A stretch of 64,000 bases of DNA from Thermocoleostomius sinensis A174 (GTDB lineage: Bacteria; Cyanobacteriota; Cyanobacteriia; Elainellales; Elainellaceae), in NCBI RefSeq assembly GCF_026802175.1, contig NZ_CP113797.1, forward strand, positions 620,001 to 684,000, in the 5' to 3' direction. Below are positions 45,911 through 61,929 of the stretch, in pieces. Made by a program: the position numbers and the translations under genes. The notes beneath the pieces were generated by a model. It was given only the letters and a program-made list of their open reading frames with translations, made no database searches and had not been told where the DNA came from. The first letter of the stretch is position 1, and the number at the start of each line of letters is the position of its first letter.

Positions 45911-46132
45911 ATGAAAGTTGGCGATCGTGTTCGTGTTAAAGAATCTGTTGTGGTTTATCACCACCCTCAGCACCGCAACGAAGCCTTTGATATCAAAGGA
46001 CTAGAAGGCGAAGTCATGGCGTTGGTGAATGAGTGGCAAGGAACGCCTATTAGTGCAAATTTTCCGGTTCTTGTTAAATTTGACGCCAAATTTAAAGCAC
46101 ATCTGCGAGAAAGCGAGCTGGAACTGATTTGA
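45911..46132 (+). CDS. ftrV: Ferredoxin-thioredoxin reductase variable chain
   Basis: The 73-residue non-catalytic subunit of FTR, which relays electrons from photosystem I ferredoxin to thioredoxin. It has the SH3-like barrel signature KVGDRVRVKESVVVYHHP, GLEGEVMALVNEWQGTPIS and FPVLVKFDAKFKAHLRESEL. It caps the catalytic chain, encoded elsewhere (ftrC not in window). Present only in oxygenic phototrophs, so it is also a lineage marker. Monocistronic. Confidence 0.93.
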   Translation: MKVGDRVRVKESVVVYHHPQHRNEAFDIKGLEGEVMALVNEWQGTPISANFPVLVKFDAKFKAHLRESELELI

Positions 46133-46518: not shown

Positions 46519-46794
46519 CTAGTCATTGGAGCAGTGCACGGTGGTATCATCCTTGGCGATCGCTGGCTGATAATCGGTTCGTTCAGAGACTTGATTGTTA
46601 GAATGCACGAGTTCGCGTTGAGCCGCCTCAACAATAACGCGGCGCAGCCATTCAGTGCGATTCGGCAACGTTTGAATTAAGGCATGAATGGATGCCGGTA
46701 AACGGACTCCTACCACTTGTTTGGATAGGGGTTCGTCTCCCACTTGTGTGAAGGTTCCACCTTGAGATTTTTGCTTCGGATTCAACAGAGGCAT
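46519..46794 (-). CDS. Ribbon-helix-helix-like DNA-binding protein
   Basis: About 91 residues from ATG 46794 (MPLLNPKQKSQGG); an in-frame ATG at 46824 overlaps the first GTTAAC operator copy and is less likely. The core (~25-62) reads SKQVVGVRLPASIHALIQTL then PNRTEWLRRVIVEAAQREL: one beta strand followed by two helices, the ribbon-helix-helix pattern of small repressors. The tail is polar (HSNNQVSERTDYQPAIAKDD). It is divergent from two small genes, with three GTTAACNCGCT motifs between them, which fits autoregulation. Fold assignment is from pattern only. Confidence 0.6.
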   Translation of the reverse strand: MPLLNPKQKSQGGTFTQVGDEPLSKQVVGVRLPASIHALIQTLPNRTEWLRRVIVEAAQRELVHSNNQVSERTDYQPAIAKDDTTVHCSND

Positions 46795-46823
46795 AGGGTT
46801 TTCCCATCGTAGTACCCCTACCA

Positions 46824-46935
46824 TGTTAACCCGCTTTTGTTGATATAGTACACTTAGTTTGTTAACGCGCTAGTTTTCGTAAGATTAATTTGTATAAAAA
46901 GACTATTTTTCTTCAAAAAAGCGTGTTAACCAATA
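46824..46935. promoter_or_regulatory. Triple GTTAACNCGCT operator-like array
   Basis: Three related words lie between divergent genes: GTTAACCCGCTTTT from 46825, GTTAACGCGCTAGTTTT from 46861, and, on the opposite strand, GTTAACACGCTTTTTT ending at 46930. Shared consensus is GTTAACNCGCT plus T-run; spacings are 36 and about 64 bp. One copy touches the minus-strand gene start. The third lies 28 bp upstream of TATAAT 46959-46964. Confidence 0.6.
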
Positions 46936-46958
46936 AAGCCAATTTGTACTAGTCTTGC

Positions 46959-46964
46959 TATAAT
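46959..46964 (+). promoter_or_regulatory. Consensus -10 box of the small-gene pair
   Basis: TATAAT 28 bp upstream of ATG 46992, with GGAG at 46981-46984 as ribosome-binding site. No good -35 box is seen at the expected position, while operator copy 3 lies just upstream, suggesting regulated or activator-dependent transcription. Confidence 0.5.
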
Positions 46965-46991
46965 AAAAAGGCATAGAGATGGAGTTGCTCG

Positions 46992-47375
46992 ATGATCAGT
47001 AACCTTCCCTCCGTTCATTCATTCAATCCAATGGCTACCCCTCGCTCTACCCGTGTTTGGTCTGCAAGTTCTGATTTAGATGCCTCTCCCCAATCGGCTT
47101 TACAAGATGCCGCGATCGAATTACAGGCTTATTTTTATCAACAAGAGGGCGAGATCTATCGGGTAGAGGATTTGCAGCGGGCCTTAGAGAATTGGCTAGA
47201 GCTTTCGATGGAAGCCTTGGTTGAAGATGCGTTGTTTCATGTGGTTGAGGGCGATCGATCGAGTGCATTTAATCGGTCTGCGTTCGAGTCGCAGATGAAG
47301 CGCCTCCGTCCTCTTGACCGTCCCGACGCAGCTACGGATGTTTGCCAGCCGATCTCAGCAGTGCATGCTGCATAA
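46992..47375 (+). CDS. Small hypothetical protein opposite the RHH-like gene
   Basis: A 127-residue soluble protein. The N-terminal ~35 residues look unstructured (Ser/Thr/Pro-rich). Residues ~36-100 are acidic helices (SALQDAAIELQAYFYQQEGE, YRVEDLQRALENWLELSMEA, LVEDALFHVVEGDRSSAFNR). The C terminus is polar. No motif is recognised. Position next to a TATAAT and the GTTAAC array suggests control by the divergent RHH-like protein. The next small gene starts 71 bp downstream. Confidence 0.6.
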   Translation: MISNLPSVHSFNPMATPRSTRVWSASSDLDASPQSALQDAAIELQAYFYQQEGEIYRVEDLQRALENWLELSMEALVEDALFHVVEGDRSSAFNRSAFESQMKRLRPLDRPDAATDVCQPISAVHAA

Positions 47376-47446
47376 TGGCTCATAGCTGTTCGATTGTCTA
47401 ACGAGTTCTACCCTCCTCTAAATCCCTTTCTTTGCGAGAGACTCCT

Positions 47447-47800
47447 ATGAAACTGATTGACTATCCAGCGGCGATCGCTGAACGGCAACGAGATTTACTG
47501 CAAGCGGACCAACGTATCCGTCGGTTGCAGGACACCTTAAATCGACATACGGCTGAGATTGATACTGCCATTGCATTTGATACAGAATTGCGCAACGATG
47601 CTCAGCGTAAAGCTAAACGCTTGGAACTGATGAATACCGCTGAATATCGGAAGGCTGTGGCAACACTGCAAATGGCTCAAGATGAACGGGCCGAAATTGA
47701 GATTGACTTAAGCCTGTTGCGCAACCAGTTTTCGGTATTGAAACTAGAAAAACGAGAAGCAATTGCCATCCGCGAATTGCAACTGGTGGATGCTGCTTAG
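47447..47800 (+). CDS. Small coiled-coil hypothetical protein
   Basis: A 117-residue protein from ATG 47447 (MKLIDYPAAIAERQRDLLQA); an in-frame TTG at 47432 is less likely. It is predicted to be almost all helix with heptad character (QRIRRLQDTLNRHTAEIDTA, QMAQDERAEIEIDLSLLRNQ, FSVLKLEKREAIAIRELQL). It contains no cysteine and no membrane segment. It probably shares a transcript with the preceding small gene. No function known; coiled-coil length would suit an oligomer or tape-like adaptor. Confidence 0.62.
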   Translation: MKLIDYPAAIAERQRDLLQADQRIRRLQDTLNRHTAEIDTAIAFDTELRNDAQRKAKRLELMNTAEYRKAVATLQMAQDERAEIEIDLSLLRNQFSVLKLEKREAIAIRELQLVDAA

Positions 47801-60349: not shown

Positions 60350-60910
60350 TCAGGCAGCGATCGATTCTTTACCCTGAGCCAAGTCAATATTGGCAATGGC
60401 ACGCTGGGCCACGTTGCGCCAATCGGTTTGGGTGTCCCACGGGGCAAACACCAATTCCCCGCCGTCGGCATATACTCGACAAAACAGTACTTCTTCGGAT
60501 TCAGCCGCTTGTACCTCAATCGTGATTGATCGCTGCAACTGTTGGGGGGTCATGGTGGCTAAGGCACTCAGCAACGATCGGCTGAAGTTAGAGTCGTAGC
60601 CAGCTTCCAAAATATAGGGGCGATCGGCTTGCACATGCAACTGCGTTTTCCAGGTATCCCGCCCCCGTCGTTCTACTTGTTTTAACTCCAGTTTTTCCAC
60701 CACACAGGTCAACGCCGAATGAGGAATTAGCTGTGGCGATCGGTGCCCATCTTCGGACAGAAAATACCACAGGCCACCCTGCGATCGATTGCAGTAGATA
60801 TACTTAGGACGCGGAGACTCCCCAAACCCTAGCTGACGCTTTTGCTGTAGTACATCAATGAGTTGCTGCAACAAGTCATTTTGCTGCGCAATCAAGTGCT
60901 CTAGGGACAT
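60350..60910 (-). CDS. Conserved hypothetical protein, 186 residues
   Basis: A soluble alpha/beta protein: helix MSLEHLIAQQNDLLQQLIDV, then KYIYCNRSQGGLWYFLSED, a strand-rich centre (SALTCVVEKLELKQVERRGR, TWKTQLHVQADRPYILEAGY) and a C-terminal ITIEVQAAESEEVLFCRVYA. GAGAGG is well placed before ATG 60910. An A/T-rich inverted/direct repeat lies 27 bp upstream. It looks like a cyanobacterial conserved protein but I cannot name the family; an OB-like or nucleic-acid-binding role is possible, not shown. Confidence 0.65.
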   Translation of the reverse strand: MSLEHLIAQQNDLLQQLIDVLQQKRQLGFGESPRPKYIYCNRSQGGLWYFLSEDGHRSPQLIPHSALTCVVEKLELKQVERRGRDTWKTQLHVQADRPYILEAGYDSNFSRSLLSALATMTPQQLQRSITIEVQAAESEEVLFCRVYADGGELVFAPWDTQTDWRNVAQRAIANIDLAQGKESIAA

Positions 60911-60930: not shown

Positions 60931-60954
60931 ATTAATATAGTACATTAATACTAT
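60931..60954. promoter_or_regulatory. A/T-rich repeat upstream of the 186-residue gene
   Basis: ATTAATATAGTAC is followed by ATTAATACTATC; ATAGTA (60937-60942) and TACTAT (60949-60954) are inverted complements. Just 27 bp from the minus-strand start, it likely overlaps the promoter and could be an operator. Confidence 0.4.
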
Positions 60955-61158: not shown

Positions 61159-61929
61159 ATGAAGCGGCGTCAATTTATCCAATATGCTGGCGCAGGCGTG
61201 CTGGCCACCGTGGGATTGAGTTTGGTCGATCGCCCATTGGCGCAGGCTCAGACTGGCTCAGTTACCCTTCAATTTTTGGGTCATACAAGTTTTCTGTTCA
61301 CGGGTGACGGGCGACGAATTTTGACCAATCCCTTTCGACCGATCGGCTGTACGGCGGGCTATCGCGCCCCTCAAGTAGCGGCAGATTTGGTGATGATTAG
61401 TAGCCGTTTGCTTGATGAAGGCGTGACCGACGGGTTGCCCAATGATCCGCAAGTGCTCTCAGAACCAGGAATTTACGAATTTCCGGGAATGCAAGTGCAA
61501 GGTATCGCTACCGACCATGATGACATTGGTGGTCGCCGCTTTGGCATAAATGTGGTGTGGCGTTGGAATCAAGGCGGGCTGAATATTGTGCATTTGGGCG
61601 GAGCCGCCGCGCCAATCACGGTTGAGCAGCAGATTTTGATTGGTCGCCCTGATGTGCTATTGGTTCCCGTTGGCAATGGTCCTAAAGCCTTCACTCCGGA
61701 AGAAGCCAGAGGGGCGATTCAAACGCTGAATCCTCGCCTCATCATTCCAACCCACTATCGTACCCAAGCCGCAGATGACGCCACTTGTGACATTGAGCCG
61801 ATCGACAATTTCCTCGCTCTGATGCAAGGCACGCCGATTGACCCCGTGAGCAGCGATACAATTACCCTCAGTTCTGCCAGTTTGCCGGAATCAGGCGCGG
61901 TGATTCGGGTATTGAGCTACGCTTTTTAG
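61159..61929 (+). CDS. Exported metallo-beta-lactamase-fold protein with degenerate metal site
   Basis: A 256-residue protein with a twin-arginine-style leader (MKRRQFIQYAGAGVLATVGL) predicting export. The fold matches UlaG-like metallo-beta-lactamase proteins: VTLQFLGHTSFLFTGDG, ILTNPFRPIGC, FPGMQVQGIATDHDD and IVHLGGAAAPITVEQQI, LNPRLIIPTHYRTQA. The metal-binding HxHxDH after 'DLVMI' reads SSRLLDE, so most zinc ligands are lost, while later His residues (ATDHDD, PTHY) remain. ATG 61159 follows GGAGAGGAGCGC. It may be a binding or structural protein rather than a hydrolase. Confidence 0.82.
   Translation: MKRRQFIQYAGAGVLATVGLSLVDRPLAQAQTGSVTLQFLGHTSFLFTGDGRRILTNPFRPIGCTAGYRAPQVAADLVMISSRLLDEGVTDGLPNDPQVLSEPGIYEFPGMQVQGIATDHDDIGGRRFGINVVWRWNQGGLNIVHLGGAAAPITVEQQILIGRPDVLLVPVGNGPKAFTPEEARGAIQTLNPRLIIPTHYRTQAADDATCDIEPIDNFLALMQGTPIDPVSSDTITLSSASLPESGAVIRVLSYAF

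Follow-up and report, generated by a model that had tools for sequence, protein, structure and literature searches.

A probable ribbon-helix-helix repressor with candidate GTTAAC operators at a phage- and plasmid-shared gene pair that looks LexA-controlled in cyanobacterial relatives

Repressors of the phage Arc/Mnt type are small ribbon-helix-helix (RHH) proteins in which residues of the strand set the choice of operator. The gene described here appears to encode a small RHH repressor as well, a likeness drawn without a sequence match, and it differs from that type in its gene context. CopASO, the RHH antitoxin of the ParESO-CopASO system of prophage CP4So in Shewanella oneidensis, represses its own promoter through GTANTAC repeats, according to the cited passages of that report (PMC8706911). 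Our locus resembles CopASO, as far as those passages describe it, in an RHH assignment by profile match, in apparent autoregulation via repeated palindromic sites and in a likely mobile-element origin; CopASO, however, is an antitoxin in an operon with its toxin and uses GTANTAC, whereas the gene studied here is divergent from its neighbours, has no recognised toxin beside it and is associated with GTTAAC. For the neighbouring pair of small genes, P0002 and P0003, the nearest described counterpart is all4790-all4789 of Nostoc PCC 7120, which is listed in the excerpts cited here as an operon with a cyanobacterial LexA box (RGTACNNNDGTWCB; PMC3091678) and shares with the P0002-P0003 type the character of a short operon of unnamed genes behind such a box. 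Among the open-access matches listed, we noticed no published report on this RHH family or on cyanobacterial GTTAAC operators.

The window analysed is a stretch of 64,000 nucleotides (positions 620001-684000 of contig C1) from the 5.81 Mb genome of Thermocoleostomius sinensis A174. Between the minus-strand RHH gene and the plus-strand genes P0002 and P0003, three exact copies of GTTAACNCGCT lie at 46825-46835 (+), 46861-46871 (+) and 46920-46930 (-), just where a preliminary description of this DNA had read them, namely at 46825, at 46861 and inverted with its end at 46930. The genome-wide count which that description had proposed gave 9 exact copies, 3 of them clustered here in 106 bp, and 9 randomly placed sites would be expected to give 8e-8 such triples. 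When up to one mismatch was allowed, 5 sites were found in the window versus 2.7 expected and 12 of 100 shuffles reached 5; since this count is not unusual, the signal is the clustering of the copies and not their number. The remaining 6 genomic copies are all single and 4 of them lie inside open reading frames of at least 100 aa, so that a wider regulon is not evident, and we rejected the idea of a genome-wide GTTAACNCGCT regulon.

The RHH gene probably starts at 46794 and not at 46824, because its relatives begin with MPLLN or a similar sequence, and this would place the first GTTAACNCGCT copy upstream of the gene. Read from the start shared with close relatives, the putative repressor (P0001) is encoded at 46519-46794 on the minus strand. 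As a single sequence it has no Pfam match, and its family profile matches CopASO (6iya/7etr, E 0.0019 and 0.0059) from the strand through the helices; alphaRep repeat proteins reach equal scores in that search, though only by scattered fragments. The strand, KQVVGVRLP, is followed by two helices predicted by the family match, and this agreement of a strand and two helices with a solved RHH protein fits the RHH (CopG-type) transcription regulators and bears out, at the level of profiles, the RHH-like assignment that had been made from the letters. Upstream of the module, at 45911-46132, lies a gene for the variable chain of ferredoxin-thioredoxin reductase (FeThRed_A; Pfam E 6e-36).

A set of 60 related genomes, counting the window's own, has P0002 relatives in 24, P0003 relatives in 32 and relatives of the RHH protein in 14. 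In 31 of the 32 P0002 loci (L010-L041, including two duplicates) the stretch also contains a relative of P0003, mostly just downstream and once in reversed order (L039). The divergent arrangement of RHH gene, P0002 and P0003 was found at six distinct loci, i.e. the window (L010), Drouetiella hepatica (L011), a groundwater cyanobacterial MAG (L012), L013, L017 and L028, after L029 and L021 had been dropped as coming from the same genomes as L011 and L012; these six loci are related to one another and are not six independent events.

Comparison of these loci suggests that the palindrome CGTGTTAACACG is a better way to write the operator conserved among the relatives. In the window, putative operator O1 (CATGTTAACCCG, 46822-46833) lies beside the RHH start and putative operator O2 (CGTGTTAACCAA, 46922-46933) lies 100 bp away on the P0002 side; both positions are occupied at all six RHH loci, with 2-4 mismatches to CGTGTTAACACG at O1 and 0-3 at O2, and the distances between them are 99, 100, 101, 101, 103 and 116 bp. 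A putative middle operator (TTTGTTAACGCG, 46858-46869), 36 bp from O1, recurs at the same distance in L013 and was not seen in the other four RHH loci. The T-runs that had been described as following the GTTAACNCGCT copies are not kept in relatives (by eye). As previously read, TATAAT is present at 46959-46964 (+), where it could be the -10 element of a P0002-P0003 operon; our scan found no -35 partner for it and gave no sigma-70 pair for the P0002 promoter, and a minus-strand promoter hit overlapping O2 was close to what chance would give (the region has 3 hits vs 1.8 in shuffles).

The proposed check that genes and motif co-occur across relatives came out positive, and the outcome named as refuting the module, a motif that is not kept between corresponding intergenic regions, did not arise. 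GTTAAC is found in all six RHH-bearing upstream stretches (420 bp; shuffled mean 0.86, maximum 4), in the same two places, and in only 1 of the 12 close P0002 loci that have no RHH gene (shuffled mean 0.85, maximum 4), where the sole exception, L023, carries it over 400 bp away from P0002's conserved core. In total 29 loci were read for GTTAAC; those outside the 12 include L030, which has none, and ten distant loci, of which L033, L038 and L041 have one copy each, two of these at the P0002 start codon. The link between the RHH protein and GTTAAC is a comparative one, and the sites might instead serve another host-encoded regulator, for which the RHH gene would be just one more target. We consider this quite improbable, since loci without the RHH gene lack the GTTAAC sites too, since these recur before RHH paralogues elsewhere, and since the longer word has only 9 exact copies in the genome, 3 of them here. 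The paralogues in question stand without P0002 and carry GTTAAC arrays before their own start, two copies in L048 and four in L049. The L048 homologue (L048:1507-2037), the one with two GTTAAC sites before its start, shows in its C-terminal part a weak, sub-threshold Pfam match to the C-terminal domain of the RNA polymerase alpha subunit (E 0.0044).

The association extends to the RHH family as a whole. Two or more sites of a single GTNNAC class within 250 bp were found upstream of 33 of 78 RHH homologues and downstream of 4 of 78, and in 200 dinucleotide shuffles of the 78 upstream regions the mean number bearing repeats was 2.1, with a maximum of 7. The 33 comprise 12 loci with GTTAAC, 13 with GTATAC, 3 with GTAGAC, 2 with GTAAAC, one each with GTCAAC and GTACAC, and one tie. 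Within this set the RHH loci L012 and L017 hold only one exact GTTAAC each, and L028 has more copies of another GTNNAC class than of GTTAAC. Because the pattern was picked after 20 of the 78 upstream regions had been read, the cleaner counts are 17 upstream versus 3 downstream among the 49 homologues unread at that time (a set that leaves out the 20 read upstreams, the module loci, L095 and L099) and 9 versus 1 in a held-out set of 50, an enrichment weaker than in the first set (9/50 vs 33/78). Taken by the residue at strand position +1, repeats accompany 42 of 101 homologues with R or K and 0 of 24 with another residue, the 3 of 128 homologues with gaps there having been dropped. Autoregulation by the predicted RHH repressor is thus well supported by comparison.

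The repeats also suggested a candidate strand-to-operator code, in which the DNA-facing strand would spell out the operator half-site across this cyanobacterial RHH family: V or I at -3 with G or A at -1 would go with GTT/AAC (GTTAAC), P (or A or Q) at -3 with Q, S, C or A at -1 with GTA/TAC (GTATAC), and strands with neither R nor K at +1 with no GTNNAC repeats; by this proposal, phage and plasmid repressors may have been re-aimed repeatedly through a few residues, one of them governing, in the lineage of the window, a pair that seems LexA-controlled in relatives. We put this forward tentatively and hold it to be somewhat doubtful. Residues -3 and -1 split the 12 GTTAAC from the 13 GTATAC loci perfectly in the first 78 homologues, the very set that suggested the code, and the CopASO strand KPVSVKL with its GTANTAC repeats, as given in the cited passages, fits a GTA/TAC class (PMC8706911). 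The rule was fixed before the held-out upstream regions were read, and the test on them was mixed: 7 of the 9 repeat-bearing loci among the 50 received a prediction, with 4 right, 1 in the wrong class (L242) and 2 carrying GTAGAC (L209 and L213), and of the four correct cases L229 nearly duplicates a first-set protein and L252 is closely related to one. With single copies counted, homologues predicted as GTTAAC have GTTAAC in 5 of 8 cases and GTATAC in 0 of 8, and those predicted as GTATAC have GTATAC in 8 of 19 and GTTAAC in 3 of 19; the rule gave no prediction for 15 of the 50. A combined Fisher test set V, I or L at -3 in 16 of 17 GTTAAC loci against 0 of 15 GTATAC loci, with L counted as hydrophobic by a choice made after L246 had been seen. 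In a tree built without the strand columns there are 6 operator-class changes; well-supported branches force only one of them and hold one independent pair, so that relatedness may account for the strand-operator association. With 4 of 7 held-out predictions right and tree support from one pair, we rejected the code as a finished rule, as unproven, and regard it as suggestive.

An RHH-type protein beside small genes, with a distant match to the antitoxin CopASO, could also serve as the antitoxin in an addiction module of the type II toxin-antitoxin or a similar kind, one of the module types named in the preliminary description. The RHH gene is, however, divergent and outside the operon, no toxin family match was found, and in 18 of the 24 genomes with P0002 no RHH match lies next to it (one of the 18 is G223, whose contig starts within P0002), which together make this reading very improbable indeed. 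Both toxin-antitoxin and defence readings were discarded after searches of Pfam, NCBIfam and PADLOC gave no convincing match. Of the autoregulated module that had been proposed, the operator array (6/6 RHH-bearing loci), the divergent genes and the probable autoregulation are retained, and the toxin-antitoxin type is not. Three loci without the RHH gene (L116, L117 and L122) have a small gene divergent from P0002, which is of the Cro/C1 helix-turn-helix type by Pfam in L116 and L117 and by similarity in L122; it is another type of regulator at the place of the RHH gene.

The preliminary description had missed the LexA boxes that occur at most of the relatives without the RHH gene, as well as a third operon gene at 60350-60910. 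Scoring the box RGTACNNNDGTWCB (the cyanobacterial LexA box in the cited part of PMC3091678) with at most one mismatch, we found it before the pair at 9 of the 12 close loci lacking the RHH gene, six of them perfect (shuffled mean 0.96, maximum 4). L015, L023 and L026 have no box within one mismatch, the site counted in L018 is off the usual place, and L018 and L015 have two-mismatch sites at the usual place. Among the six RHH loci, 2 (L013 and L017) have a LexA-like site with one mismatch (shuffled mean 0.5, maximum 2), and LexA may also act there; P0002 of the window has no LexA box within one mismatch, its best site having two. In a second, distant lineage of P0003 a small MTKHY-type gene comes first; of the 13 loci (among 15 tried) in which this small gene was found, 10 have a LexA box (shuffled mean 0.73, maximum 4) and L084, L085 and L089 have none. 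These distributions suggest that the pair in relatives without the RHH gene looks like a LexA-controlled, SOS-type operon.

MTKHY-type and P0003-type genes stand in tandem with LexA boxes in L262, L265, L266, L267, L268, L270, L271, L272, L088 and L090, and this tandem is possibly the all4790-all4789 type of LexA target, judging by the excerpts cited (PMC3091678). By eye, TAGTAC/GTACTA words are also present near the operators, in the window at 46844-46850 and 46944-46951 and in the same regions of L011, L012, L013, L017 and L028; at these RHH loci they could be vestiges of LexA sites.

At 7 of the 12 loci lacking the RHH gene, the next gene after P0003 encodes about 200 aa, and the homologue of that gene in the window is the third gene, 60350-60910 on the minus strand (G000:C1:680371-680910, 71% identity), about 12.5 kb from the pair. 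On the same strand, at 60939-60952, the LexA-box-like sequence AGTATTAATGTACT lies 42 to 29 bp before its ATG with one mismatch, a single site that may be due to chance. Among the six genomes with RHH loci the third gene is present in G000 and G202; at E 1e-5 nothing matched it in G199, G203, G209 or G217. A single-protein search of viral contigs returned no relative, although inspection by eye and alignment showed relatives close to P0003 in two of them, L098 and L105. For the third gene, comparison with families and solved chains gave nothing convincing (best solved E 1.4), and a DNA-handling role therefore rests on the LexA boxes and the neighbours. A Lactamase_B_3-type gene at 61159-61929 adjoins the third gene and, by eye, resembles a gene found some 2.7 kb past P0003 in L012 and L125, a possible trace of shared gene order.

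P0002 (46992-47375, +) encodes 127 aa with a conserved WLELSIExLVEDALFH stretch, and P0003 (47447-47800, +) encodes 117 aa with LKNDxQRKAxR and LRNxFSVxKLExR conserved in the alignment. Both had been described as matching nothing; no match to any named family was found for either, and relatives nevertheless exist in the related genomes counted above and in viral contigs. In an even draw of the phylum P0002 occurs only in the window's own genome (1/194), and P0003 is sporadic in a spread draw (13/278 genomes). The model of P0003, a long helical hairpin, is of high confidence at a pLDDT of 95.9, and that of P0002, at a pLDDT of 71, is confident for its helical core alone. A fold search gave no match that stands out for P0002 and no PDB match below E 0.001 for P0003, which has no solved relatives by sequence; among viral models, most of the best matches of P0003 are to proteins that have not been characterised (TM about 0.8, E no better than 0.006). 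PHROGs gave weak hits only. The best family match of P0003, HAUS1 (E 0.006), is under the cut-off, as expected of a coiled coil. The P0003 model aligns with the T4 recombination mediator UvsY (Z 10.2, rmsd 2.5 over 101 residues in VIA-align), but at 7% identity, with a Foldseek TM of about 0.45 and at a Z that unrelated coiled coils share.

The suggested link to phages and plasmids holds for P0003, which has relatives on both. Three plasmids carry it, two of Scytonema HK-05 and one of Stanieria, and a search of plasmids for P0002 gave none. Against phage records P0003 has one weak match (E 4e-3), and in IMG/VR it has 13 loci on 12 contigs, with viral status as assigned by IMG/VR and with some contigs matching stretches of genomes in this set; P0002 relatives lie on viral contigs L225-L227. 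Beside P0003 in viral contigs stands a divergent small regulator, of the RHH type in L099 and of the helix-turn-helix type in L096, L098 and L100, an arrangement in keeping with prophage early control. Downstream of P0003, two plasmids (L091 and L092) and two viral contigs (L096 and L103) carry DdrB-like genes, which recalls Deinococcus DdrB (PMC3834827); in the window, by contrast, the pair is followed by the M1 peptidase gene. From the LexA boxes and these neighbours, the operon likely has a role in handling single-stranded or damaged DNA.

The same relatives could mean that the trio is left over from a decayed prophage or plasmid, as a control region that survived by chance and has no host function, since genes of the P0002-P0003 type stand with a divergent small regulator in viral contigs L099, L096, L098 and L100 and P0003 occurs on cyanobacterial plasmids. 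Across 18 loci in other genomes of the family, P0003 nevertheless keeps 71-81% identity and is free of internal stops, and the operators and LexA boxes are conserved. The module's direct neighbours in the window are ordinary (M1 peptidase and FeThRed_A; other loci were viewed by eye only), and next to the module we found no other phage genes, the nearest large ones being a weak PP2C-like gene, FeThRed_A and Peptidase_M1. This explanation is in our view rather unlikely.

We regard it as probable that the RHH repressor acts on GTTAAC operators to control both divergent transcription units, the small gene pair being shared with phages and plasmids, under SOS-type LexA control in relatives and likely concerned with DNA handling. 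In this model, the RHH protein encoded from 46794 on the minus strand would bind as dimers to O1, the middle operator and O2, and the bound dimers would repress both units until a derepressing signal relieves repression. In relatives that have no RHH gene, the P0002-P0003 pair, with the third gene in 7 of 12 loci, would instead be under LexA as an SOS-type operon; in the window the pair has no LexA box and would be under the RHH repressor instead, and the separate third gene carries a LexA-like box. Comparison with the relatives suggests that the regulator changed between LexA and RHH, in either direction.

An unannotated corner of the genome thus becomes a testable switch, with a pair that is apparently SOS-controlled in most close relatives and under what would be a private repressor here. 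P0003, one conserved helical-hairpin protein, ties together viral contigs, plasmids and SOS-type operons. The RHH family would offer dozens of natural repressor-operator pairs for learning a specificity code, and may be a source for developing small repressors for cyanobacterial work.
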